Shown here: piece after piece, positions 1,800-13,323 of the stretch | How positions within the stretch are numbered: position 1 is the first letter of the stretch | How the letters are laid out: the number at the start of each line of letters is the position of its first letter | Assembly (NCBI GenBank): GCA_019635575.1 | Contig: JAHBZF010000025.1 | Coordinates: 1-35,243 of the forward strand | Direction: 5' to 3' | Origin: Pseudolabrys sp. | Lineage (GTDB): Bacteria > Pseudomonadota > Alphaproteobacteria > Rhizobiales > Xanthobacteraceae | DNA length: 35,243 nt | Notes under the pieces: generated by a model | What the model saw: only the letters and a program-made list of their open reading frames with translations | Databases searched by the model: none | Told to the model about the DNA's origin: nothing | Position numbers and translations under genes: made by a program

Positions 1800-2774
1800 T
1801 CATGCCTTGATGCCGGCGAATTTGACGACCTTCGCCCATTTCTCGACTTCGCTGGCGATGTGCTGGCGGAAGTCGTCGGCCGAACCGATGAAGGGTGTCG
1901 AGCCGAGCGCGGCAAAGCGCGACTTGAGCTCGGGGTCGGCCAGCGCGGCGTTGATCTCTTTGTTCAACGCCGTGATGATCTCGGCAGGTGTGCCGCGCGG
2001 CGCGCCGATGCCGAACCAGTTGCTGGCTTCGTAACCCGGCAGAAAATCCTTCATCGTCGGAACATCGGGCATCGCGTCGGAGCGTGTCGCGCCCGTCATC
2101 GCCAGCGCGCGCAGACGCCCGGCCTTGATGTGTTCGATCGAGACCGGCAGACCGCCGAAATAGACATGCACCTGGCCGGCGATCAGATCGGTGAGTGCCT
2201 GGCCGCCGCCGCGATAGGGGACATGCACCATGTCGATGCCGGCCATCATCTTGAACATCTCGCCGGCGATATGTGGTGCGGTCCCCGGACCTGGAGACGC
2301 GAGACTGAGCTTGCCCGGATTGGCTTTGGCATGCGCGATGAATTCGGGAACCGTCTTCGCCGGAAACGACGGCGGCACCAGCATGAACAGAGCGTCGCGG
2401 TTGATGCTCGCGACCGGCGCGATGTCGCGCATGAAGTCGAACGGCAGCTTGGCGTAGAGCGAGACGTTGACGGCGTTCGACAGCATTACCAACAATAGCG
2501 TGTAACCGTCGGCTGGCGCGTTGACCACGGTTTCGGTGGCGAGATTGCCACCGGCGCCGGGCCGGTTCTCGACCACGAATGGCTGGCCGAGCCGATCCGT
2601 CAGCCATTGCGCCATTAGACGAGCGGAGATGTCCGGCCCGCCACCCGCGGCGTTGCCGACCAGCAACCGCACCGGGCGGGCCGGATAGGTCTGGGCTGTC
2701 GCGAAGCCGGGAATGGCGGTGCCGGCGAGTGTCGCTCCAGCGAGATGGAGCATGTGACGGCGGTTGAGCTTCAT
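1800..2774 (-). CDS. Bug/TctC family tripartite tricarboxylate transporter substrate-binding protein
   Basis: This is a 324-residue periplasmic solute receptor of the Bug family. The N terminus, MKLNRRHMLHLAGATLAGTAIPGFATAQ, is a Tat-like signal (RR plus a hydrophobic stretch and an AxA-type cleavage site). Family landmarks follow: YPARPVRLLVGNAAGGGPD, the ENRPGAGG loop, DGYTLL, a HVPYRGGGQALTDLIAGQV block, and the C-terminal EVEKWAKVVKFAGIK. The ATG at 2772-2774 was chosen because GGAGGGG lies just upstream and the signal peptide then starts cleanly; an upstream in-frame start adds a non-signal extension. No TctA/TctB membrane partners are nearby, which is typical of Bug genes. It is divergent from a LysR gene and upstream of an aromatic monooxygenase, so it probably binds an aromatic or other carboxylic acid. 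The ligand cannot be read from sequence. Confidence 0.92.
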   Translation of the reverse strand: MKLNRRHMLHLAGATLAGTAIPGFATAQTYPARPVRLLVGNAAGGGPDISARLMAQWLTDRLGQPFVVENRPGAGGNLATETVVNAPADGYTLLLVMLSNAVNVSLYAKLPFDFMRDIAPVASINRDALFMLVPPSFPAKTVPEFIAHAKANPGKLSLASPGPGTAPHIAGEMFKMMAGIDMVHVPYRGGGQALTDLIAGQVHVYFGGLPVSIEHIKAGRLRALAMTGATRSDAMPDVPTMKDFLPGYEASNWFGIGAPRGTPAEIITALNKEINAALADPELKSRFAALGSTPFIGSADDFRQHIASEVEKWAKVVKFAGIKA

Positions 2775-2860
2775 GGACCCCTCCATTCGCCGCAAACCGC
2801 GATCCGGTGCTTGGCCGGCTCGATTCCCCGTGCGGCAGTCGCCGAACTGTGGACCAGACC

Positions 2861-2890
2861 AGCTATAGCTCATATCCTGATTTTTATATG
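2861..2890. promoter_or_regulatory. Candidate LysR operator in the divergent Bug/lysR gap
   Basis: The 135-base gap between the divergent genes holds a perfect 10-bp palindrome AGCTATAGCT (2861-2870). It is immediately followed by CATAT (2871-2875) and ATATG (2886-2890) in inverted orientation with a 10-base spacer. The dyad is AT-rich within GC-rich DNA and 20-50 bases before the LysR start, as expected for an autoregulatory LysR-type site. No protein-specific consensus was recognised. Confidence 0.45.
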
Positions 2891-2909
2891 AAGGTTATAG
2901 AGGTTACCT

Positions 2910-3881
2910 ATGGATCCGGTGACGATGGAGTGGGAGAGCCGCCTCGGCCACCGGCTGCGCGTGCGCGATCTGCATATTCTATCGGTCGTCGTGAAAGCGG
3001 GCGGGATGGCCAAGGCGGCGCGACAGCTCGCCATGACCCAGCCTTCGGTGTCCGCGGCGATCGCCAATCTTGAACATGTGCTCGGTGTGCGGTTGCTCGA
3101 CCGGAGTCGGCGCGGCACAGAGCCGACGATTTACGCCGCGGCGATCCTCAAGCGCGGTGTCGCCGTGTTCGATGAGCTCAAGCAGATCGTCCACGACATC
3201 AATTTTCTCGCCGATCCGGCGAAAGGCGAACTGCGGATCGGATGTTCGGAATCGGTGAATGCGACGGTGCTGCCGCGCTTCATCGAGGCGTTCAGCCGCC
3301 GTTTCCCCAAGGTCGTCGTCCATGTCGATGATGTCCCGCCGCCGGCCATCGCCAGCGCGGGACTGTATGAACGCAAGTTCGACATCGTGTTCGCACGATT
3401 GTCGCCCGCCGCTCCGGACACTCAGCCCGATGCTGGTTTGACTGTCGAATATCTGTTCAACGATCCGCTGGTGATCGTGTCAGGACCGGATCATCGCTGG
3501 GCGCGGCGCCGCAAGATCGCGCTGGCGGAATTGATGGATGAACCGTGGATCCTCACGCCGCCGGGAACCTGGAATGATGTCTGCATGACAGAAGCCTGCC
3601 GTCTGCAAGGTCTCGATTTGCCGAAGGCGCGCTTGTTGGCGTTTTCGACGCATCTGGTGCGCCATTTCGTGGCGAATGGCGACTTTCTCACGACCTGCGC
3701 GCGAACGGTCGCGGAAGCCTGTGGGTTGAAGGTGCTGCCGGTCGAACTTCCGAACCGGCCGTGGATGCTGGCGCTTGTCACCTTGCGCGATCGTACGTTG
3801 TCTCCGGTCGCCGAGCGGTTCATCGAATGCGCGCGTGCGGTGTCGAAAGAGGTTTCACCGCCGTCCGTCGCGCAACGTTAG
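2910..3881 (+). CDS. LysR family transcriptional regulator
   Basis: This is a 323-residue LysR-type regulator. The winged helix-turn-helix spans roughly residues 17-77 (LRVRDLHILSVVVKAGGMA, then AARQLAMTQPSVSAAIANLE and LGVRLLDRSRRG), and the inducer-binding domain of about 200 residues starts near KGELRIGCSES. The ATG at 2910 has AGAGG six bases upstream; an in-frame ATG at 2925 is a weaker alternative. The gene is divergently transcribed from the Bug/monooxygenase pair across 135 bases that hold a dyad. In this family that layout usually means the regulator controls its divergent neighbours and itself in response to a pathway metabolite. The effector is not known. Confidence 0.93.
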   Translation: MDPVTMEWESRLGHRLRVRDLHILSVVVKAGGMAKAARQLAMTQPSVSAAIANLEHVLGVRLLDRSRRGTEPTIYAAAILKRGVAVFDELKQIVHDINFLADPAKGELRIGCSESVNATVLPRFIEAFSRRFPKVVVHVDDVPPPAIASAGLYERKFDIVFARLSPAAPDTQPDAGLTVEYLFNDPLVIVSGPDHRWARRRKIALAELMDEPWILTPPGTWNDVCMTEACRLQGLDLPKARLLAFSTHLVRHFVANGDFLTTCARTVAEACGLKVLPVELPNRPWMLALVTLRDRTLSPVAERFIECARAVSKEVSPPSVAQR

Positions 3882-3931: not shown

Positions 3932-5470
3932 TCACGCGGCGCTGATTGCCGGCAACAGATCGGAGCCGGCGGCGGTGGCGATAGCGCCGCTGCGAACGAG
4001 ATCCGTGGCGCTCTGCAGGTACGGATAGATGTACTGGTCGTCCTCGATATAAGGCACTTTGGCGCGCACGCAGGCGCGCACGGCCTGCAGCGGCGCGCTC
4101 GAGGCGAGCGGCTGGTGAAAGTCGCAACCCTGCGCGGCGGTGAGCAATTCGATGCCGACCACGGCGGCGGCGTTCTCGGCCATGCCGAGCAGCCGGCGCG
4201 CGCCATGCGCCGCCATCGATACATGGTCTTCCTGATTGGCCGAGGTCGGGATCGAATCGACGCTCGCCGGAAATGCCTTCTGCTTGTTTTCCGACACCAG
4301 CGCGGCGGCGGTGACCTGCGGGATCATGAATCCGGAATTGAGGCCGGGCTTGGCGGTGAGGAACGCCGGCAGGCCGGACAATGCAGGATCGACCAGCATG
4401 GCGATGCGTCGCTCGGACAAGGAGCCGATCTCGCAGATCGCCATGGCGATCATGTCGGCGGCGAATGCAACCGGCTCGGCGTGGAAGTTGCCGCCGGAGA
4501 GCGCTTCGCCGGTGTCGGTAAACACCAGCGGATTGTCGGTGACGCTGTTAGCCTCGGTCGCGAGCACGCCGGCAGCGTTGCGCAGCACATCGTAGCACGC
4601 GCCCATCACCTGCGGCTGGCAGCGTAGACAGTAAGGGTCCTGCACGCGCTCGTCGTTGACGAGATGCGAGGCGCGGATCGTGCTGCCGGCAAGCAGGGCG
4701 CGCAGCGCCGCTGCGGTTTTCACCTGGCCCTGATGTGGGCGCAACGCGTGGATGCGTGGATCGAACGGCGTGTCGGAGCCGCGCGCGGCGTCGGTCGAGA
4801 GCGCGCCGGTGACCAGCGCCGACTGCATCAGCAATTCGGCCTCGAACAATCCGGCCAACGCATAGGCGGTGGAGAACTGCGTGCCGTTGAGCAGCGCCAG
4901 GCCTTCCTTGGGGCCGAGCACCACGGGCGTGAGGCCTGCTTTCGCAAGCGCCTCGTCCGCCGGCAGGCGGCCCTGCGGCGTGAGGATGTGGCCGACGCCG
5001 AGCAGCGCGGCCGTCATATGCGACAGCGGCGCGAGGTCGCCCGATGCGCCGACCGATCCCTGTGCGGGAATTTCGGGGATCAGGTCCTTGGCGAGCAGCG
5101 CCTCCAGCATGCGGATCGTCTCGACGCGTGCGCCGGATGCGCCCTGTGCGAGGCTGGTCAGCTTGAGCGCCAGCATCAGCCGCACGATCTCACGCGGCAT
5201 CGGTGGGCCCATGCCGGCCGCGTGCGACAGCACGATGTTGCGCTGGAGCGTGGCGAGATCCTCGGTCTTGATGCGCACATGCGCGAGTTTGCCGAACCCG
5301 GTATTGATCCCGTAGACCGGCTCGTCGCGGGCGATGATCTTTTCCACCGCTTTCGCGCTGGTCTCGATCGCGCCGAAACAATCCTGGCTCAGTCGCGCTC
5401 CCGCGCCGCGATAGATCGCGCGCCAGTCCTCAAGCGGCACCCGGCCGGGATTCAAAACGATTTCCGTCAT
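3932..5470 (-). CDS. hutH: Histidine ammonia-lyase (HutH-like aromatic amino acid lyase)
   Basis: This 512-residue MIO enzyme is expected to remove ammonia from L-histidine to give urocanate. Counting from the ATG at 5468-5470 (preceded by GGAGAC), the MIO-forming Ala-Ser-Gly falls at residues 142-144 ([14 protein letters not shown]), the catalytic Tyr at 53 (YGINTGFG), and His at 83 (VLSHAAG). These are the positions described for Pseudomonas putida HAL. The C-terminal [11 protein letters not shown] block and the Glu of [12 protein letters not shown] also match HAL rather than phenylalanine ammonia-lyase. A start eight codons upstream is possible but has no better ribosome site. It is divergent from a HutC-like repressor with a shared operator. 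No hutU, hutI or hutG is in the window, so a complete Hut pathway is not encoded here. The family assignment is firm; the true substrate is less so. Confidence 0.9.
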
Positions 5471-5535
5471 CGATGTCTCCAGTATCGCGCGCAAACAAAT
5501 GCGGTGCCGCGTCCGGATCAGTTAAGCCGAGGCCG

Positions 5536-5559
5536 ATTATTTTGTCTATACAAAATAAT
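5536..5559. promoter_or_regulatory. HutC-type operator 1 (hutH/hutC gap)
   Basis: ATTATTTTGT (5536-5545) and ACAAAATAAT (5550-5559) form a perfect 10-bp inverted repeat around CTAT. The core TGTCTATACA differs by one base from TGTATATACA, and HutC repressors are known to bind TTGTAT-type palindromes. It lies 66 bases upstream of the hutH start and 139 bases before the regulator start, so it can control both. A near-identical site occurs at 7423-7438. Confidence 0.82.
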
Positions 5560-5697
5560 GTCTATCAACGGACTTGGGCTGATGCCGGGTCCGTCGCGGC
5601 GTTCCTGCACGGCTCCGATGACGGCAGGGCGCTTGTTGCGGACCGGCAAAGTGCGCATAGTCCGTCTCGGGTTCGGCGACATTTGCAAAAGGTTTCC

Positions 5698-6438
5698 ATG
5701 CCATCGAGGACGCGCGCCAGGCGAGCTGTGGCCGTGACGCTGAAGGACCGGATCCGGTCGGACATCGAAACCAGGATTTTCTCGGGCCGCTGGCCGCCCG
5801 GACACCGCGTTCCCAACGAACACGAATTGGCCGAGAAATACGCCTGTTCGCGCATGACCGTGAACAAGGTGCTGTCCGACCTTGCGGCGAAGGGCATCAT
5901 CGAACGCCGTCGCAAGGCCGGCACCTTCGTCGCCAAGCCGACCGTCCAGTCGGCGGTGCTGCGCATTCCCGACATCAAGGCCGAGGTCGAGGCGCTTGGC
6001 TATCTGTACCGCTACGAACTCCTGTTTTTAAAGCGCCGCCATGCCACCAAGGCCGATCAGGAACTAATGCGGCTTGGTCCGCAACACGACGTGATCGAAT
6101 TCCGCTGCCTGCATTGGGCGAACCAGCAGCCGTTCGCCTACGAGCACCGGTTTCTCAATGTCACCGCGGTGCCGCAGGCGCTGGAGCAGGACTTCGGCAT
6201 CGAGCCGCCGGGAACGTGGCTGCGCAATCACGTACCGTGGAGCGAAGCCGAACACAGCATCTTCGCCGAGGATGCCGACCCGGAAGCGGCGCAGGCGCTA
6301 CATGTGACGAAGAATGCCGCGTGCCTGGTGGTGCAGCGGCGTACCTGGCGCGGCGGGGAGATGATCACCCACGTCCGCACCATCTTTCACGGCGCGCTCT
6401 ACCGTCTCAATGCTCACTTCACGCCGACCAACGACTGA
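5698..6438 (+). CDS. hutC: GntR family regulator, HutC-like (UTRA domain)
   Basis: This 246-residue repressor has an N-terminal GntR winged helix-turn-helix at about residues 14-80 (LKDRIRSDIETRIFSGRWPP, VPNEHELAEKYACSRMTVNK, RRRKAGTFVAKP). A UTRA ligand-binding domain follows at about 100-240. The C-terminal half contains LRNHVPWSEAEHSIFAE and ACLVVQRRTW, which closely resemble histidine-utilisation repressors that sense urocanate. The ATG at 5698 was chosen because it opens directly into the DNA-binding domain after AAAAGG; an upstream in-frame start at 5473 would add 75 unrelated residues and cross the operator. Its 3' end overlaps the 3' end of the convergent DUF6282 gene by 25 bases. It likely represses itself, hutH, and the DUF6282/MFS pair through two matching palindromes. 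Confidence 0.9.
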   Translation: MPSRTRARRAVAVTLKDRIRSDIETRIFSGRWPPGHRVPNEHELAEKYACSRMTVNKVLSDLAAKGIIERRRKAGTFVAKPTVQSAVLRIPDIKAEVEALGYLYRYELLFLKRRHATKADQELMRLGPQHDVIEFRCLHWANQQPFAYEHRFLNVTAVPQALEQDFGIEPPGTWLRNHVPWSEAEHSIFAEDADPEAAQALHVTKNAACLVVQRRTWRGGEMITHVRTIFHGALYRLNAHFTPTND

Positions 6439-7391
6439 ACCGGCGCGGCTTTCGCCTTGCTGTCCATGCTCTCGAACAACAGCTTGTTGGTGTTGAGCAC
6501 CGACATCTGCACGATGTCGTCTTCCTTGATGCCGCGCTTCTGGAATTCGCTGAAGAATTCGCGCAGCGCATCCCCGACATTCGGCGAGAAGATCTGGCCG
6601 ACGTCGGACGAGAGGATGACGCCCTTGGGGCCGACGGCCTCGATCACCTCGATATATTGCTCATAGGTGAGGTGATCCATGGCGAGGTTGACGAAGGCGA
6701 GTTCGCTGTAGGCGCCGTACTGCTCCCACATGCGCTTCATCGTCTCCGGGTCGAGCTCGGTCGACTGGAACAGCGGATGCGTCATGATGATGCGGCGGAT
6801 GCCCATTTCGTAGGCCATCTTCACCAGCGTGAGCGTCTCGTTGCGGTCGAAATGTCCGGTCGCCAGGATCAGATCGCGCTCCAGGATCAGTTCGAGCGCG
6901 CGGCGCATCGCCGCCATCTTGTCGTTGTTGGCGGTGTCGAAGGTGTAACCGGTGCCTTCCGCATAGAAGCGGGTGTATTCGCGCTTGATGCTCCAGGATT
7001 CCGACAAGTCGCGACGGTTATAGAGACGCAGATGCGCCTCACAGCACACCGTCGGCATCCATACGACGAAGCGCTGTGAATCCGGATCGGCGGCGGTCAC
7101 ATCGCTCTTCCAGCCGGAGAGGGCCGAACGCACGCCGTGATCGTCGACGCCGCCGCAGCCGAAGTTCAGCGCGACCGAGCCGATCAATGCAACCTTGTCG
7201 TCTGCCCGGCGCACCTGGCTCACCTGAGCGGTGGTCGGGATGAAGTGATTCTTCATCACCACGCCGAAGCCTTCGCGCCGCGCTTCGGCAGCGAGGGATT
7301 CCGCGGAATATTTGCGGCGCAGGAGTTCCGGGCCGATATGCACGTGCATGTCGATGACGCGCTTGTCGCCGACGTGAGGGAGTGCCTTCAT
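6414..7391 (-). CDS. DUF6282 family amidohydrolase-like protein
   Basis: This 325-residue protein has the look of a metal-dependent TIM-barrel hydrolase. An N-terminal His-X-His (VIDMHVHIGPELL, H16 and H18) is followed by VVMKNHFIPTT (K47, H49), later GHFDRNE, IIMTHPLFQ and ILSSDVGQ. These would supply further metal or catalytic residues in an amidohydrolase fold. The MHVHIGPELLRRK and KNHF signatures fit DUF6282 as I recall the family; its reaction is not established. The ATG at 7389-7391 is preceded by AGGAG, and an upstream start would place the operator inside the gene. It is divergent from the MFS transporter across a HutC-type palindrome, so it is probably induced together with the hutH-like gene. 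A role in hydrolysing a product of that pathway is inference. Confidence 0.8.
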   Translation of the reverse strand: MKALPHVGDKRVIDMHVHIGPELLRRKYSAESLAAEARREGFGVVMKNHFIPTTAQVSQVRRADDKVALIGSVALNFGCGGVDDHGVRSALSGWKSDVTAADPDSQRFVVWMPTVCCEAHLRLYNRRDLSESWSIKREYTRFYAEGTGYTFDTANNDKMAAMRRALELILERDLILATGHFDRNETLTLVKMAYEMGIRRIIMTHPLFQSTELDPETMKRMWEQYGAYSELAFVNLAMDHLTYEQYIEVIEAVGPKGVILSSDVGQIFSPNVGDALREFFSEFQKRGIKEDDIVQMSVLNTNKLLFESMDSKAKAAPVQSLVGVK

Positions 7392-7422
7392 GATCGTGCT
7401 CCTGTCTTGATGCCTCAGATAA

Positions 7423-7438
7423 TTTTGTATATACAAAA
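7423..7438. promoter_or_regulatory. HutC-type operator 2 (DUF6282/MFS gap)
   Basis: TTTTGTATATACAAAA is a perfect 16-bp palindrome, 31 bases upstream of the DUF6282 start and 102 bases upstream of the MFS start. It matches operator 1 at 15 of 16 core positions. Two copies of so specific a dyad, each in a divergent gap next to a HutC-like gene, imply one regulon. Confidence 0.85.
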
Positions 7439-7540
7439 AATGTTGTCAAGCTGGAACCGCGGAGCGGCTATCGCTGGCATACGTCTTGCTCGTGCCGTTT
7501 CGTGGGGTTTAGAACGATCCAGAAAACGGGGGAAGGGCTG

Positions 7541-8785
7541 ATGTCAATTCAATCACCGGCACAGGTTGCCGAGAGCGTAGACGCTCCGGCGGACAGCTAC
7601 GCACGCAAAGCGTTGATCGCATCCAATGTCGGCTATGCGATGGACGGCTTCGATCTGATGATCCTGAGCTTCATGCTGCCCGCGGTTGTGGCGGGGTTGC
7701 ATCTCACCGGATCGGAGGCGGGATCGCTGATCACGTGGACGCTGATCGGCGCCGTGGTCGGCGGCCTCATCGTCGGCACCCTGAGCGATAAGTTCGGCCG
7801 AATCCGCGTGCTGTCGTGGACCATCCTGCTGTTCGCGGTGTTCACCGGCCTGTGCGCATTCGCGCAAGGCTATTGGGATCTTCTGATCTATCGCACCATC
7901 GCCGGCATCGGGCTCGGCGGCGAATTCGGCATCGGCATGGCGCTGGTGGCGGAAGCCTGGCCGGCACATAAGCGGGCGCGTGCTTCGTCCTATGTGGCGC
8001 TTGGCTGGCAGGCAGGCGTGCTCAGCGCCGCGCTGCTCACGCCGCTGTTGCTGCCGCTGATCGGATGGCGCGGCATGTTCCTCGTCGGCTTGGTTCCAGC
8101 GGTCATCGCTTTCGGGCTGCGCCGGTATTTGCACGAGCCGGAGTTGTTCGTGAAGGCGGCCAAGAAGGAAGAGGGGCGCGGCACCAATCCCTACAGCTAT
8201 CTGTTCGCCAATCGCGAGGCGACGCGCTCCACCATTGGGATCGGCATCATGACGTCGATCCAGAACTTCGGTTATTACGGCATGATGATCTGGCTGCCGT
8301 CCTATCTGTCGACGCAGCTCGGCTTTTCGCTCACGCGCTCGGCGTTGTGGACTTCGGTGACGGTGATCGGCGGCGCCTTCGGCATGTGGTTGTTCGGCCA
8401 GCTTGCCGACCGCATCGGCCGCAAGCCGCTGTTCGTCGCGTTCCAGGTCGGCGCCATGGTGATGGCTTTCGTCTATCCGCAGATCAAGGATCCGACCTTG
8501 CTGCTGATCGCCGGCGGCATCACCGGCATCTTCCTGAGCGGCATGATCGGCGGTTACGGCGCGCTGATCTCGGAAAGCTATCCGACCCAGGCCCGCGCGA
8601 CGGCGCAGAACGCGCTGTTCAATATCGGTCGCGGCGTCGGCGGGTTCGGGCCGCTGGTGATCGGCCTGCTGGCGACGCAGTATTCTCTGTCGGCGGCGCT
8701 GTCGTTCCTGGTCTTTGCCTGGGCGCTCGACATCGTCGCCACCGTGTTCCTGATCAAGGAACGCAAGGGCGAACAGCTCGTCTGA
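7541..8785 (+). CDS. MFS transporter, aromatic acid:H+ symporter-like
   Basis: This is a 414-residue inner-membrane carrier with about twelve hydrophobic segments. The first segment has MDGFDLMILSFMLPAV, and DGFD in TM1 is a hallmark of the aromatic acid:H+ symporter group (PcaK-like) and its sialate-transporter relatives. The MFS loop motif appears twice, as GTLSDKFGRIRVL between TM2 and TM3 and QLADRIGRKPLFV in the second half. GIGLGGEFGIGMALVAE marks TM4-TM5. The ATG at 7541 follows a GGGGAAGGG ribosome site; an in-frame start at 7502 is less likely. A strong terminator follows at 8801-8843. Its promoter region carries a HutC-type operator, so its cargo is probably histidine, urocanate or a related imidazole or aromatic acid. 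Import versus export cannot be decided. Confidence 0.9.
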   Translation: MSIQSPAQVAESVDAPADSYARKALIASNVGYAMDGFDLMILSFMLPAVVAGLHLTGSEAGSLITWTLIGAVVGGLIVGTLSDKFGRIRVLSWTILLFAVFTGLCAFAQGYWDLLIYRTIAGIGLGGEFGIGMALVAEAWPAHKRARASSYVALGWQAGVLSAALLTPLLLPLIGWRGMFLVGLVPAVIAFGLRRYLHEPELFVKAAKKEEGRGTNPYSYLFANREATRSTIGIGIMTSIQNFGYYGMMIWLPSYLSTQLGFSLTRSALWTSVTVIGGAFGMWLFGQLADRIGRKPLFVAFQVGAMVMAFVYPQIKDPTLLLIAGGITGIFLSGMIGGYGALISESYPTQARATAQNALFNIGRGVGGFGPLVIGLLATQYSLSAALSFLVFAWALDIVATVFLIKERKGEQLV

Positions 8786-8878: not shown

Positions 8879-9355
8879 TCAGTCGATCAGCACTTCGCCT
8901 TCGAGTTCGACCGGGATGTCGAATGGCAGCTCCGCGACACCGACGGCGGACCGTGCGTGTTGCCCGCGCTCCTGTCCGAAGATCTCGATGATCAGATCGG
9001 AAAATCCGTTGATGACGCTCGGCATCTCGCGGAAACCGGGCGCGCAGTTCACCATGCCGAACGCGCGAACCCAGGTGATGCGTTCCAGGTCGCCGAGTTC
9101 GCGCTGCAGGCTCGCGAGCATCGCCAGCCCGGTGAGGCGGGCAGCGCGATAGGCTTCCTCCTTCGTCACCTCGCTGCCGACGCGGCCGAGCGGCTTGGCG
9201 AAACTGCCGTCTTGATCGGTCGGGCCATGTCCGGAAATCAGAGCGCGCTTGCCGCAGATGCGGACGCTGGCGAAGGGGAGAACAACGCCGGGCGGGAAGC
9301 GGGGAGGCTGCGGAAGCACGATGCCGAGTTGTTGCAGGCGGTCGGAGATGCGCAT
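8879..9355 (-). CDS. RidA (YjgF/YER057c/UK114) family protein
   Basis: This 158-residue protein belongs to the Rid family, small trimeric proteins that in RidA itself hydrolyse reactive enamine/imine intermediates released by PLP enzymes. The C-terminal HARSAVGVAELPFDIPVELEGEVL aligns with the family's PARSCV...LPKDV...IEIE block. R135 corresponds to the catalytic arginine of RidA, and a glutamate pair is present at the end. The N-terminal part is about 30 residues longer than E. coli RidA, as in the subgroup of about 150-160 residues. The ribosome site before the ATG at 9353-9355 is weak. It is convergent with the MFS gene and outside the two HutC-type gaps, so linkage to the histidine-type regulon is positional only. 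Confidence 0.85.
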   Translation of the reverse strand: MRISDRLQQLGIVLPQPPRFPPGVVLPFASVRICGKRALISGHGPTDQDGSFAKPLGRVGSEVTKEEAYRAARLTGLAMLASLQRELGDLERITWVRAFGMVNCAPGFREMPSVINGFSDLIIEIFGQERGQHARSAVGVAELPFDIPVELEGEVLID

Positions 9356-9620
9356 TCGGTTTCGGTTCCGTTGAGAGGCAGGTCGTCCCTTCTGTGTTTA
9401 CCGAAATACGTTGTGACCTCAACGTCATTTGTCAGGTCGACGCGCAGAGGACGACCGATCGCGGAAGGTGCATGAGGAGCTTGTCTCGTCGGTTAGTTGA
9501 CCCCGGAACCTCGGATTGGATTTCGCTCAATCTCGAACTAGTAGGATTAAGAGGCGTTTGGATTTATGAAAGCGTCGGCGGTTGTCAGCTTGGTAACGCT
9601 GCCAGTGTGAAGCTGCCGCC
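9356..9620. other. Non-coding gap between RidA and DUF6894 genes
   Basis: These 265 bases have no convincing reading frame. The part from about 9480 to 9600 is less GC-rich (TAGTAGGATTAAG near 9539-9551) and probably holds the promoter of the small DUF6894 gene. No repeat or dyad stands out. Confidence 0.5.
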
Positions 9621-9917
9621 ATGCAACGTTATTATTTCGAGATCAAAATCGACGACGCCGTCATCGCCGATGACCGGGGTCGGGACTGCCGCGATCTGGC
9701 TGACGCGCACGCGCATGCGGCGAAGATCGTCGCCGATTGCGTGCGTTTCTGCCCGCCGGAGCCGATGGGTAGCCGTGGGCGGATCGCGGTCATGGACACG
9801 ACCGGGCACCGTCTGCTGACCGTCTTGTTCCCTGCAATGGGACGGCGATCGCGGGGGGCAATGGATCGGGCAAAGCGGCGCGCCAGTCCGCGCACCAAAA
9901 GTGGCGTAGCTCTGTGA
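9621..9917 (+). CDS. Small DUF6894-like protein
   Basis: This is a 98-residue protein beginning MQRYYFEIKIDDAVIADDRG and continuing with DLADAHAHAAKIVADCVRF. The pattern (an aromatic-rich first strand, a D-x-x-G turn, then an alanine-rich helix) matches the small DUF6894 proteins that are abundant in Bradyrhizobium, Methylobacterium and relatives. Their function is unknown. The C-terminal third (GRRSRGAMDRAKRRASPRTKS) is basic and probably disordered. No strong ribosome site is visible before the ATG. It is flanked by non-coding DNA and does not appear to be in an operon. Confidence 0.6.
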   Translation: MQRYYFEIKIDDAVIADDRGRDCRDLADAHAHAAKIVADCVRFCPPEPMGSRGRIAVMDTTGHRLLTVLFPAMGRRSRGAMDRAKRRASPRTKSGVAL

Positions 9918-10007
9918 TCGGTCGATAGCGGTCCGCTTTGGTCCGCTCGCTGCCTGACCGATGACCCCGGTATCCACGGGCCCGGCGCAGGCGGGGCCGG
10001 CGCCTGG

Positions 10008-10223
10008 TCAGTGGGGCCGGCAATGCACCGCGGCGATATCGGAATAGGGGATTTCCACCCAGCTTCCGTCCTCGGCGGTGGCCTGCACCGTGGTCTCATA
10101 ACAGATCAGGTCGAGCTCGATCGTGACGCTATCGCCGTCGATCTTGTCGATGGCGATGGCTCCGCGAACGCTCCGGGCCTGTTCCAGCGCATTCTGTAGT
10201 TTCTGTCGGATCGCGAGGTTCAT
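10008..10223 (-). CDS. Small hypothetical protein
   Basis: This is a 71-residue acidic protein, MNLAIRQKLQNALEQARSV..., with an N-terminal amphipathic helix followed by alternating strand-like stretches (VTIELDLICYE, GSWVEIPYSDIAAV). The composition looks like a real folded protein rather than an antisense shadow. No family is recognised and no strong ribosome site precedes the ATG at 10221-10223. It sits alone between the DUF6894 gene and the second Bug gene. Confidence 0.5.
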   Translation of the reverse strand: MNLAIRQKLQNALEQARSVRGAIAIDKIDGDSVTIELDLICYETTVQATAEDGSWVEIPYSDIAAVHCRPH

Positions 10224-10413
10224 GACGGCTCAACCGTCCTGGCCCCCATTCGTTCCCGTGGGAAGCCGATCCGGTGGGCCGGTTGCGCGCTTTGGCCGCA
10301 AAGCCGGTTGTGCGGGAGCGGTCGCGCCGCGTAACGTGTCCGTCCGATCCGGCCACAAAGGCCGGACGATACAAGCGCCGGAACGTCAATCGGCGAACCA
10401 CGGGGAAACGCTC

Positions 10414-11379
10414 ATGACACGTTGGCTTGGTCTGTTCCTGTCCCTTTTCATAGCGGCGGCTGCGGGTGGCAGCGCCGGCGCGGCGGATTATCCGAACCGG
10501 CCGGTCCGCTTCATCGTCGGCTATCCGGCCGGCGGCGCGACCGACATTCTCGCGCGGCTATTCGGCGACTACTATTCGCGCAAGACGGGACAGCAGTTCA
10601 TCATCGAAAACCGGCCGGGCGCCGGTAACAATATCGGCACCGAGGCGGTGCTGCGTTCGCCGCCGGATGGCTACACGGTGCTGCTGGTCAATCCGGCGAA
10701 CGGCATCAACGCTTCGCTTTACAAGAAACTCAACTTCAATTTCGTCAAGGAAGTCGAGCCGATCGCCGGCTATATCCGCGTGCCGAACGTGATGGAGGTG
10801 CATCCGTCGGTACCTGCGAACACGGTGGCGGAGTTCATCGCTTACGCCAAGGCCAATCCCGGCAAGATCAACATGGCGTCGTCCGGCAACGGCACGTCGA
10901 TCCATTTGTCGGGTGAGCTGTTCATGCTGATGACCGGCGTGAAGATGACGCATGTGCCCTATCGCGGCTCGGCGCCGGCGCTGACCGATCTCATCGCCGG
11001 GCAGACACAGGTGATGTTCGACAACCTGCCGCCCTCGGTACCGCACATCAAGGCGGGCAAGCTGCGCGCGCTTGGTGTCACCACCGCCGTGCGCTCGGAA
11101 GCGTTCCCCGATGTGCCGCCGATCGGCGACACCGTGAAGGGCTATGAGGCGAGCGCATGGTTCGGCATTGCCGGGCCGAAAGGCATGCCGAAAGAAGCGG
11201 TGAACCTGATCAACAAGCTCACCAACGAGGCGCTGAAAGATCCGGAGATCGTCGCCCGGCTGAAGCAGCTCGGCGGCATCAATATGGGTGGCACGCCAGC
11301 CGATTTCGGCAAGGTGATCGCCGAGGAAACCGACAAATGGGCCAAGGTGGTGAAGGCGGCCAATCTGTCGGTGGAGTAG
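10414..11379 (+). CDS. Bug/TctC family tripartite tricarboxylate transporter substrate-binding protein
   Basis: This 321-residue periplasmic receptor has a Sec-type signal (MTRWLGLFLSLFIAAAAGG, cleavage after SAGA). Bug family blocks follow: YPNRPVRFIVGYPAGGATDI, the ENRPGAGNN loop, DGYTVLLVN, HVPYRGSAPALTDLIAGQT, and the ending EETDKWAKVVKAANLSVE. The ATG at 10414 was chosen because GGGGAAA lies just upstream and the signal peptide starts there; the open frame reaches further back without family similarity. It shares only the fold with the 1800-2774 Bug protein and is clearly a separate paralog. The next gene, 213 bases downstream on the same strand, is a sugar-acid-type dehydratase, so an aldonate ligand is plausible. 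That is inference, and no TctAB membrane genes are present. Confidence 0.92.
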   Translation: MTRWLGLFLSLFIAAAAGGSAGAADYPNRPVRFIVGYPAGGATDILARLFGDYYSRKTGQQFIIENRPGAGNNIGTEAVLRSPPDGYTVLLVNPANGINASLYKKLNFNFVKEVEPIAGYIRVPNVMEVHPSVPANTVAEFIAYAKANPGKINMASSGNGTSIHLSGELFMLMTGVKMTHVPYRGSAPALTDLIAGQTQVMFDNLPPSVPHIKAGKLRALGVTTAVRSEAFPDVPPIGDTVKGYEASAWFGIAGPKGMPKEAVNLINKLTNEALKDPEIVARLKQLGGINMGGTPADFGKVIAEETDKWAKVVKAANLSVE

Positions 11380-11392
11380 GAGAAACCTGTCT

Positions 11393-11443
11393 GACCTCAT
11401 CCTTCGAGACGCGACGCTACGCATCGCTCCTCAGGATGAGGTC
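11393..11443 (+). repeat. REP-like palindromic repeat A1
   Basis: The ends GACCTCATCCT and AGGATGAGGTC are perfect 11-bp inverted repeats. Inside are the conserved CGAGACGC and GCTCCTC segments. It starts 14 bases after the Bug stop. It belongs to the same family as A2, B1, B2, C1 and C2 in this window. Confidence 0.85.
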
Positions 11444-11489
11444 AATTCAGGATCGCTCGATACAAATTGCCGGGAACGATGATATCTCT

Positions 11490-11543
11490 CTGTCCTCATC
11501 CTGAGGAGCCTCCGCAGGAGGCGTCTCGAAGGATCGAGGACAG
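11490..11543 (-). repeat. REP-like palindromic repeat A2
   Basis: It is bounded by CTGTCCTC and GAGGACAG and contains CATCCTGAGGAGC, then GCGTCTCGAAGGAT. It lies in inverted orientation to A1, 46 bases away, so the pair resembles a BIME-type head-to-head unit. An inner CCTCCGCAGG mini-stem is visible. Confidence 0.85.
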
Positions 11544-11592
11544 CCACTGACGCATCGCTGGGACCATTTCGGTCCTACAGCCAAAATAGACA

Positions 11593-13323
11593 ATGACACA
11601 ATCCAAGAAACGCCCCGAAGACCTGCGCAGCCATCGCTGGCTCGGCGTCAGTGACCTGCGCTCGTTCGGGCATCGCTCGCGACTGCGCCAGTTCGGCTAT
11701 GACGCCGACGACTGGTCCGGCAAGCCGGTGATCGGCATCATCAACACCTGGAGCGAGATCAACGCCTGTCACGCGCACTTGCGTGATCGGGCCGAGAGCG
11801 TGAAGCGCGGCGTGCTGCAGGCCGGTGGCTTCCCGGTCGAGATTCCGGCGATGTCGTTGTCGGAGCCGTTCGTCAAGCCGACGACCATGCTCTACCGCAA
11901 CTTCCTCGCCATGGAGACCGAGGAGAGCCTGCGCTCGCTGCCGCTCGACGGCGCGGTGCTGCTCGGCGGCTGCGACAAGACCACGCCGGGTCTCGTCATG
12001 GGCGCGATCTCCATGGGCATCCCGGCGATCTATGTGCCGGCCGGCCCCGCGTTACGCGGGAACTGGCGCGGCCAGACGCTTGGCTCCGGCTCCGATGCTT
12101 GGAAATACTGGATGGAGAAGCAGGCCGGCAACATCACCGAGCAGGAGTGGGGCGAGATCGAGGGTGGCGTGTCGCGCTCGTTCGGCACCTGCATGGTGAT
12201 GGGAACGGCCGCGACGATGATGGCGATCGTCGAGGCGCTCGGCCTCGCGCTGCCCGGTTCATCGTCGATCCCGGCGGCGGATTCGAGCCACCCACGCATG
12301 GCGATGGTCGCCGGCCGCCGCATCGTCGAGATGGTGTGGGACGATCTCACGCCCGACAAAATCCTGACGCCGGCGGCGTTCGACAACGCCATCAAGGTAC
12401 ATATGGCGCTCGGCGGCTCGACCAACGCGATCATCCATGTGATCGCCATGGCACGCCGCGCCGGCATTCCGCTCGACATGCAGCGGTTCGACGACCTGTC
12501 GCGCGAGATTCCGGTGATCGCCAATATTCGGCCATCAGGAACGTACTTGATGGAAGACTTCTATTACGCCGGCGGGCTGCGCGCGCTGATGAACGCGATG
12601 CGCGACAGGCTCGATCTCTCGTGCATGACGGTGACGGGGCGTCCGCTCGCCGACAGTTTCGAGGGCGTGGAAATCTATCAGCCCGATGTGATCCATCCGC
12701 TCTCCGATCCGATCTATGCGGAAGGGGCGACGGCGGTTCTGACCGGCAATCTCGCGCCGAACGGCTGCGTGATGAAGCCTTCGGCGGCGGAGCCGCGTCT
12801 GACGCAGCATCGCGGCAAGGTGATCGCGTTCGAGGACTACAACCATATGGCGCGCGAGGTCGACCGCGACGATCTCGATGTGACGCCGGACCATATCCTC
12901 GTGCTCAAGAACGCCGGGCCGAAGGGCGGCCCCGGCATGCCGGAATGGGGCATGCTGCCGATCCCGAAGAAACTGGTGAAGCAGGGTGTGCGCGACATGC
13001 TGCGCATTTCCGACGCGCGCATGAGCGGCACCAGTTATGGCGCGTGCATCCTGCATGTGGCGCCGGAAAGCTATGTCGGCGGCCCGCTCGCCTTCGTCGA
13101 GACCGGCGACGAGATCGAGGTCGATGTCGCGCGCCGCCGCATCCATCTGCATGTGTCGGACGCGGAACTGGCGCGCCGCCGCGCCGCGTGGACGCCGCCG
13201 CCGCCGCGCTATCTGCGCGGCTACGGGGCGATGTTCGCCGAGCATATCGGTCAGGCCGACGAAGGCTGCGACTTCGATTTCCTCAAAGCCGGCCCGACGA
13301 TCCCGGAGCCGGAAATTCATTGA
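11593..13323 (+). CDS. IlvD/Edd family dehydratase, L-arabinonate dehydratase-like
   Basis: This 576-residue protein belongs to the IlvD/Edd family of [Fe-S]- and Mg-dependent dehydratases, which turn 2,3-dihydroxy acids into 2-keto acids. The three cluster-binding cysteines fall at C59 (NTWSEINACH), C127 (GGCDKTTPG) and C200 (SFGTCMVMGTAATM). These are the same numbers as in the [2Fe-2S] L-arabinonate dehydratase of Rhizobium leguminosarum. The proposed catalytic serine is S478 in SDARMSGTSYG. The SRSFGTCMVMG and HLHVSDAELARRR blocks also fit the pentonate/hexonate subgroup rather than biosynthetic IlvD. The ATG at 11593 follows a region with two REP elements and no obvious strong ribosome site. 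It probably acts on an aldonic acid bound by the upstream Bug protein. The exact sugar acid is unknown. Confidence 0.88.
   Translation: MTQSKKRPEDLRSHRWLGVSDLRSFGHRSRLRQFGYDADDWSGKPVIGIINTWSEINACHAHLRDRAESVKRGVLQAGGFPVEIPAMSLSEPFVKPTTMLYRNFLAMETEESLRSLPLDGAVLLGGCDKTTPGLVMGAISMGIPAIYVPAGPALRGNWRGQTLGSGSDAWKYWMEKQAGNITEQEWGEIEGGVSRSFGTCMVMGTAATMMAIVEALGLALPGSSSIPAADSSHPRMAMVAGRRIVEMVWDDLTPDKILTPAAFDNAIKVHMALGGSTNAIIHVIAMARRAGIPLDMQRFDDLSREIPVIANIRPSGTYLMEDFYYAGGLRALMNAMRDRLDLSCMTVTGRPLADSFEGVEIYQPDVIHPLSDPIYAEGATAVLTGNLAPNGCVMKPSAAEPRLTQHRGKVIAFEDYNHMAREVDRDDLDVTPDHILVLKNAGPKGGPGMPEWGMLPIPKKLVKQGVRDMLRISDARMSGTSYGACILHVAPESYVGGPLAFVETGDEIEVDVARRRIHLHVSDAELARRRAAWTPPPPRYLRGYGAMFAEHIGQADEGCDFDFLKAGPTIPEPEIH

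Follow-up and report, generated by a model that had tools for sequence, protein, structure and literature searches.

A divergent hutH/hutC and DUF6282/MFS locus of Pseudolabrys sp. as a probable satellite of a dispersed HutC regulon

We analysed a stretch of 35,243 nucleotides from Pseudolabrys sp. (contig JAHBZF010000025.1 of assembly GCA_019635575.1; hereafter the window), in which four genes are arranged around two AT-rich, operator-like palindromes (Table 1). The genes encode a histidine ammonia-lyase (hutH), a GntR/UTRA repressor of the kind that controls histidine utilization (hutC), a DUF6282 protein and a transporter of the major facilitator superfamily (MFS). HutH scored 683.1 bits against TIGR01225 (cut-off 539.15; scored on 3932-5494), and its best matches among solved structures were histidine ammonia-lyase entries, namely 1gkm and others, which we take to be the P. 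putida enzyme. The alignment to 1gkm showed that the ASG (MIO) tripeptide is kept, together with the positions that presumably make up the active site. HutC reached 291 bits against TIGR02018 (cut-off 220; scored on 5473-6438) and carries the Pfam domains GntR (PF00392) and UTRA (PF07702). The DUF6282 gene lies tail to tail with hutC, their 3' ends overlapping by 25 bases, and its product matched PF19799 with 145 bits (gathering score 26.8). The MFS protein scored 179.3 bits against MFS_1 (33.4), and its best-scoring NCBIfam family was TIGR00895 (aromatic acid/H+ symport) with 324.7 bits, under the cut-off of 418.55. Note that the starts of the DUF6282 and MFS genes were refined from relatives and those of hutH and hutC from the first plausible ATG, and that start and stop codons were checked; the DUF6282 start position is common to the loci L026, L027, L028 and L019.

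Table 1. Genes, operators, promoter-like sites and box places (window positions unless a contig or locus is named)
Feature	Position	Strand	Sequence or remark
hutH, histidine ammonia-lyase	3932-5470	-	start refined to ATG at 5470
hutC-type GntR/UTRA repressor	5698-6438	+	start refined to ATG at 5698; other starts possible
DUF6282 protein	6414-7391	-	start refined to ATG at 7391
MFS transporter, aromatic-acid/H+ symporter-like	7541-8785	+	start refined to ATG at 7541
Operator 1	5536-5559		24-base dyad ATTATTTTGTCTATACAAAATAAT; 11/12 arm positions complementary
Operator 1 core	5540-5555		TTTTGTCTATACAAAA
Operator 2	7423-7438		TTTTGTATATACAAAA; perfect 16-bp palindrome
Promoter-like sites over operator 1 (two)	5564-5536 and 5568-5539	-	
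Promoter-like site over operator 2	7449-7422	-	TTGACA-16-CAAAAT
Box places in the source genome	two in window, C112:5841, C172:18636, C200:12778		up to 3 mismatches
Equivalent of operator 1 in genome G015	L026:11845-11860		TTTTGTATAGACAAAA

Each palindrome sits in a divergent gap, operator 1 between hutH and hutC (227 bp) and operator 2 between the DUF6282 and MFS genes (149 bp), where 31 bases separate it from the start of DUF6282 and 102 from that of the MFS gene. The original prediction, made from the letters of the DNA, had described both dyads, their placement in divergent gaps and the identity of their 16-mers at 15 of 16 positions; direct comparison bore out all three points, including the position and pairing of each dyad. 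The box TTTTGTMTATACAAAA was then searched in the window with up to three mismatches, and the four matches returned were these two places on both strands, the mean in 100 shuffles being 0.03. The further statement that AT-rich dyads of this quality are rare in such DNA stood in part: the AT-rich sequence is exceptional, but the symmetry itself is unremarkable, since the window holds five perfect 16-bp palindromes against ~1.1 expected from base composition. Because the remaining four are GC-rich or mixed, and three 24-mers in the window pair at 11/12 or better, it is the AT-rich sequence and not the symmetry that sets the two operators apart.

The published HutC core is TGTA-N2-TACA in the available part of PMC12977541, and the HutC-subfamily consensus is NyGTMTAKACNy in that of PMC4494728. 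Operator 2 matches the former fully, and operator 1 (5540-5555) matches it with one half-site altered (TGTC-N2-TACA); both operators match the latter. Furthermore, a scan of 5400-7620 returned three promoter-like sites, all on the minus strand, against 0.7 expected in shuffles, and each of them overlaps one of the dyads and is directed into hutH or DUF6282 (Table 1). Occlusion of these promoters would be the natural reading of repression at the locus. Note that HutC sites in P. aeruginosa include some with little likeness to the consensus, as described in the available part of PMC12772324, and therefore a site search can miss targets.

We examined how often the box occurs beyond the window. 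The source genome is a draft of 3.83 Mb (83.6% complete, 5.4% contaminated), and it held five distinct places with up to three mismatches to TTTTGTMTATACAAAA (Table 1), the reversed control giving one forward and one reverse match. Hut genes adjoin four of the five, namely the two in the window and those on contigs C112 and C172. At the C200 place, no hut-like gene was seen nearby among the open reading frame translations that were read; the translation of its neighbour reads Lrp/AsnC-like, and this box was treated as chance and set aside as a regulon site. Across the genus, places with at most one mismatch were present in three of 43 genomes, and the reversed control gave none in all 43. The source genome (G000) and genome G015 had two each, those of G015 being at the equivalent locus L026, and G020 had one stray place; that is, 4/5 belong to the window-type locus. 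The distance from palindrome to DUF6282 start was 32 bases in L026, 33 in L027 and 32 in L028. Many scattered, unrelated copies of the palindrome, which the original prediction had named as evidence against itself, were seen neither in the source genome nor in the 43-genome scan.

A scan with the DUF6282 protein over a genome collection of 84,980 species, a search limited to close relatives, confirmed DUF6282 loci in three genomes, G015 (95% identity), Aminobacter aganoensis (83%) and A. niigataensis (83%). Aminobacter belongs to the Phyllobacteriaceae. The DUF6282 and MFS genes are divergent in both Aminobacter species, as in the window, and the pair carries such a box in all three. However, the Aminobacter pair lies away from hut genes, beside purF-like and cvpA-like genes according to their translations, and no HutH or HutC match was found in the surrounding 21 kb. 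In this gap the box is a perfect palindrome, AATTATGTATATACATAATT, which stands 32-33 bases away from where DUF6282 starts, compared with 31 in the window; a second, weaker copy is present as well. We therefore scanned five genomes (six entries, G015 twice) for the shifted box TTWTGTMTAKACAWAA with up to two mismatches, and found six places in each Aminobacter genome, against two and three in the reversed controls. The sole place with no mismatch in each genome was the DUF6282/MFS gap. In each, a place with one mismatch was the gap of the classic hut operon (L048, L050), which separates the tblastn matches to HutU, HutH and HutI from those to HutF and HutC. Thus, of the five Aminobacter places with at most one mismatch, four are at hut or DUF6282/MFS genes, and the fifth is at A. 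aganoensis C32:2826; the remaining places have two mismatches each, one being the weaker copy found in the DUF6282/MFS gap. In either Aminobacter genome there is one HutH and a single HutC above the cut-off, the latter 47-48% identical to that of the window. The simplest reading of these sequences is that HutC would control both the hut operon and DUF6282/MFS in Aminobacter, and that box and regulator have changed together between the two lineages.

The box at C32:2826 (L049:1210-4485) is flanked by an Asp/Glu/hydantoin racemase and flavin reductase pair and by a family-5 solute-binding protein gene, and no counterpart was found in A. niigataensis at up to two mismatches.

These comparisons bear on whether the boxes might belong to another GntR regulator, their HutC likeness being general to the subfamily. 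The core GTMTAKAC is indeed common to the HutC subfamily at large in the available part of PMC4494728, and the HutC model gave 21-35 matches, including many partial ones, in each of six genomes searched. However, most places with no more than one mismatch are found at hut or DUF6282/MFS genes, four of five in the genus and again four of five in Aminobacter, where the next-best regulator after HutC scored 122 bits against the cut-off of 220. In addition, box and HutC stand side by side both in the window and in the Aminobacter hut operon, and we consider another regulator improbable. The proposal that one HutC ties together hutH, hutC, DUF6282 and MFS is thus supported by the HutC-like operators and by the return of a similar box at both Aminobacter DUF6282/MFS gaps, and DUF6282 and MFS are very probably members of the HutC regulon, judging from these sequence patterns.

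The original prediction had also noted that hutU, hutI and hutG are missing here, which is correct for the local cluster but not, at least for hutU and hutI, for the genome. A search of the source genome found hutI on C112 and hutU on C112 and C196, with a hutU fragment at the end of C132; an FGase-family gene is on C31 and a fragment of one on C24, with none on C112. Note that the role of the FGase-family gene in hut is uncertain, because the family was present in 39 of 40 genomes searched. The order on C112 is hutC-hutF, then two HutC boxes, ATTGTATAGACAAT and ATTGTATATACAAT, then hutI-hutU. In all, there were three HutC above the cut-off and four HutH matches, of which three are full-length and one is a fragment at the end of a contig. 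Genome G015, listed as 100% complete, has two HutC above the cut-off and two hutH, one of which is the window-type copy at the DUF6282 locus; no hutH match was found within the 20 kb read at its main hut block (hutIU, hutFC). Genome G003 of the same genus has a single block with HutH, HutU, FGase, HutI, HutF and HutC matches. The hut genes are, as read from these contigs, dispersed in the lineage of the window, whose locus appears to hold one of the lyases.

The third HutC, on C172 (L013:5569-8236), is 27% identical to that of the window and lies beside a hutH 73% identical to the window copy, with the box ATTGTCTATACAAT between them. It may represent contamination of the draft or a real extra copy, as G015 has no third HutC above the cut-off.

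The dispersal of hut genes speaks against a separate catabolic route, in which the HutH-like lyase, DUF6282 and MFS would degrade histidine, urocanate or an analogue without the classic Hut enzymes, as the original prediction had proposed. The four genes do form a compact cluster with its own operator type, and the redundancy of four HutH matches and three HutC above the cut-off could allow a specialised set. However, the classic enzymes exist in the same genome, with hutU, hutI and hutF on C112 and the FGase-family gene elsewhere; HutH scores as an ordinary histidine ammonia-lyase with its active-site positions kept; the main block of G015 lacks hutH; and Aminobacter has the same kind of box both at DUF6282/MFS and at its classic operon. 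Because the classic hut genes are present on C112, a separate route was not supported, and we regard it as unlikely.

We propose instead that the locus is probably a satellite part of a dispersed hut regulon, in which the local HutC represses hutH, hutC, DUF6282 and MFS through the two operators. Specifically, the HutC-type repressor from this locus would bind both TTTTGTMTATACAAAA operators and, when bound, would keep the four genes off, the operators overlapping the promoter-like sites of hutH and DUF6282. Urocanate, formed by HutH from histidine or imported, would release HutC. The urocanate made by HutH would then be finished by HutU, HutI, HutF and probably an FGase, all from genes in other parts of the genome. 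The MFS protein would most likely import histidine, urocanate or a related imidazole-type acid, and DUF6282 would most likely hydrolyse a compound that feeds into the pathway or leaks from it, such as a conjugate or a cyclic acid of the imidazolone or hydantoin kind. The gene families were computed, as were the operators, how specific these are and their return together with the hut operon in Aminobacter; HutC binding, urocanate as inducer, the direction of transport and the chemistry of DUF6282 are inferred.

Several observations weigh against the proposed satellite regulon. The scan of 5400-7620 gave no promoter-like site belonging to hutC or to the MFS gene, and the source genome is a draft that is incomplete and 5.4% contaminated. 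The shifted box TTWTGTMTAKACAWAA with up to two mismatches was as frequent as its reversed control in G015 and G092 (2 and 2), and only the places with at most one mismatch carry weight for this reason; one place in G092, C25:26071, has a single mismatch. G092, from a different genus of the window's family, has a divergent DUF6282 (77%)/MFS (80%) pair with no box in the gap. The pair is adjacent and divergent in all five genomes with a DUF6282 of at least 77% identity, the source genome included, and one of these five therefore lacks the box. In G1133 (DUF6282 55%), neither a tblastn match to the hut and MFS queries nor a box was found in the 20 kb read. More distant DUF6282 genes are located in aromatic-acid or other carboxylate clusters.

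Elsewhere in G092, contig C8 (L111:7193-10667) holds hutH and hutC with the box AAATGTATAGACATAA, adjoining a solute-binding-protein-like open reading frame; no HutU, HutI or HutF match was found within the 20 kb read there, the rest of G092 not being searched for hutU.

To see what the transporter might carry, we looked at its relatives on plasmids, inspecting five of the best among 112 records with a match. Four neighbourhoods (Variovorax twice, P. putida and Klebsiella), with MFS proteins 61-65% identical to that of the window, have genes for dihydroorotate dehydrogenase, dihydroorotase and a hydrolase of the Zn-dependent or carbamoylase type beside the MFS gene, and no hut genes, unlike the window; the fifth, from Haematobacter, differs in content. 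On plasmids of Klebsiella, Pseudomonas and Variovorax, L105, L106, L107 and L109 resemble clusters for the uptake and degradation of orotate. Orotate may be the substrate of the plasmid relatives, and the subgroup as a whole may transport N-heterocyclic carboxylic acids, a range that urocanate would fit.

The sequence of DUF6282 was examined for signs of its chemistry. All 12 aligned members are invariant at D14xH16xH18, K47xH49, G179-H180, E185, H205, E230 and D263, a layout suggestive of a metal-dependent barrel hydrolase. The window protein scored 14 bits against the amidohydrolase model PF01979, under the cut-off of 25, and among the 12 aligned proteins one each matched Amidohydro_2 (E 0.00038), PHP (E 0.00047) and Amidohydro_1 (E 0.03). 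Against solved structures, nothing better than E 0.4 was found, and an AlphaFold2 prediction with four close sequences had a mean pLDDT of 43.5, too low to show whether the fold is a TIM-barrel. Relatives were found in 42 plasmid records (25-31% identity among the 20 listed), and nine neighbourhoods were inspected, eight of them annotated and the Fusobacterium record without annotation. On a Thermus oshimai plasmid (L054), DUF6282 lies between GntR and PIG-L genes among genes for catechol 2,3-dioxygenase, 4-hydroxybenzoate monooxygenase and carboxy-hydroxy-oxoadipate aldolase, which presumably serve protocatechuate meta-cleavage; no ring-lactone hydrolase is listed in this stretch besides DUF6282. 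The order GntR-DUF6282-PIG-L is repeated on an Alicyclobacillus dauci plasmid (L057). Given the Thermus genes, a pyrone-dicarboxylate ring hydrolase is a possible role for the more distant DUF6282 proteins. Of the other plasmid stretches, four have TRAP or tripartite transporter genes and two do not, and in Mameliella alba DUF6282 is ~3 kb from hutF and hutI.

Given these neighbourhoods, one variant of the proposed regulon is that a cyclic acid arising as a side product, such as hydantoin-5-propionate or an imidazolone acid, is imported by MFS and opened by DUF6282. Four of the five inspected MFS plasmid neighbourhoods hold genes for the breakdown of N-heterocyclic acids, the one-mismatch box of A. 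aganoensis stands beside an Asp/Glu/hydantoin racemase gene, and the Thermus DUF6282 lies among ring-cleavage genes with no other ring-lactone hydrolase listed. However, the racemase-side box has no A. niigataensis counterpart at up to two mismatches and the Haematobacter neighbourhood differs, and we hold this variant as a tentative possibility. Uptake of an imidazole-type acid combined with hydrolysis of a related cyclic compound is the role we favour on these sequence contexts. On the same tentative footing, the DUF6282 subgroup could be a new histidine/urocanate enzyme that opens a cyclic imidazole-derived acid imported by MFS, forming a HutC-controlled salvage branch undescribed in the hut systems that we found.

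A second variant concerns conjugates. A transporter and a hydrolase under one operator are the usual layout of uptake-plus-release modules, and by that analogy DUF6282 might cleave an MFS-imported conjugate of histidine or urocanate (amide, ester or peptide-like) that feeds hut. HutC regulons are also described, in the available passages of PMC5343134, as gaining lineage-specific transporters. However, no peptidase was present in the eight annotated DUF6282 neighbourhoods, whose neighbours are genes of ring, CoA and carboxylate metabolism and transporter genes, and we regard conjugate cleavage as somewhat doubtful. A role for DUF6282 as a stand-in for hutG, considered since the C112 block lacks hutG, was rejected: A. 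aganoensis has DUF6282, and its hut operon also contains an FGase-like gene (L048:5511-6338, assigned by position and translation only).

The locus was next compared with known systems. According to the available passages of PMC5343134, HutC regulons contain multiple HutH paralogues and lineage-specific transporters, including a COG2814 permease in Ralstonia. The locus shares with the proteobacterial HutC regulon (Pseudomonas and Klebsiella, Rhizobiales being included in PMC5343134) a GntR/UTRA repressor, TGTA-N2-TACA operators and hutH as a target, but it adds DUF6282 and an aromatic-acid-type MFS, a pair not named in those passages. It also differs in that hutH stands apart from hutU, hutI and hutF, and in that the flanks of the box are of its own sequence. 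Neither lineage-specific transporters nor additional copies of HutH would thus be new to a HutC regulon. No paper naming DUF6282 came up in a literature search, and nothing was found on the pair in partial listings of the literature on hut, urocanate and orotate transporters, hydantoin propionate and imidazole propionate. The operators, found again in a second lineage in another flavour, would tie the DUF6282 family and this transporter subgroup to a well-understood regulon. DUF6282 thereby gains a testable role, namely which imidazole-type compound the HutC-linked DUF6282 and MFS handle, and the hut regulon here would occupy several loci and have two or more HutC repressors that differ in the flavour of their operators.

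DUF6282 proteins this close are, by the sequence searches, apparently rare. In overlapping samples of genomes, they were found in 4/149 of the family at E <=1e-20 (two of them with at least 77% identity, the source genome included), 2/397 of the order at 1e-40 (the source genome and a 34% relative), 2/385 of the class at 1e-45 (the source genome and a 55% relative), one of 398 of the phylum at 1e-45 (the source genome) and 2/297 of Aminobacter's family at 1e-50 (both Aminobacter). Note that G015, a carrier, was presumably outside the family sample, as no match was reported. Among viral contigs, 21 stretches matched a pattern, and none of them encodes a relative.

A second, more distant HutU in the source genome, on C132/C196 with a fragment on C132, is 72-73% identical to that of C112, and a further HutH there, with a fragment on C196, is 58% identical to that of the window (L012:1-7852, L011:9262-11254). 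An ABC-type permease gene is nearby on C132, and the C132 type is also present on contig C7 of G015. This second HutU/HutH set could serve a urocanate analogue such as thiourocanate.

Two other parts of the window, both free of the box at up to three mismatches, flank the locus. In the stretch 1800-3881, the genes of a LysR regulator and of a TctC-type binding protein are divergent, and the stretch 8879-13323 encodes a RidA-like protein, a second TctC protein and an L-arabinonate-dehydratase-type enzyme.

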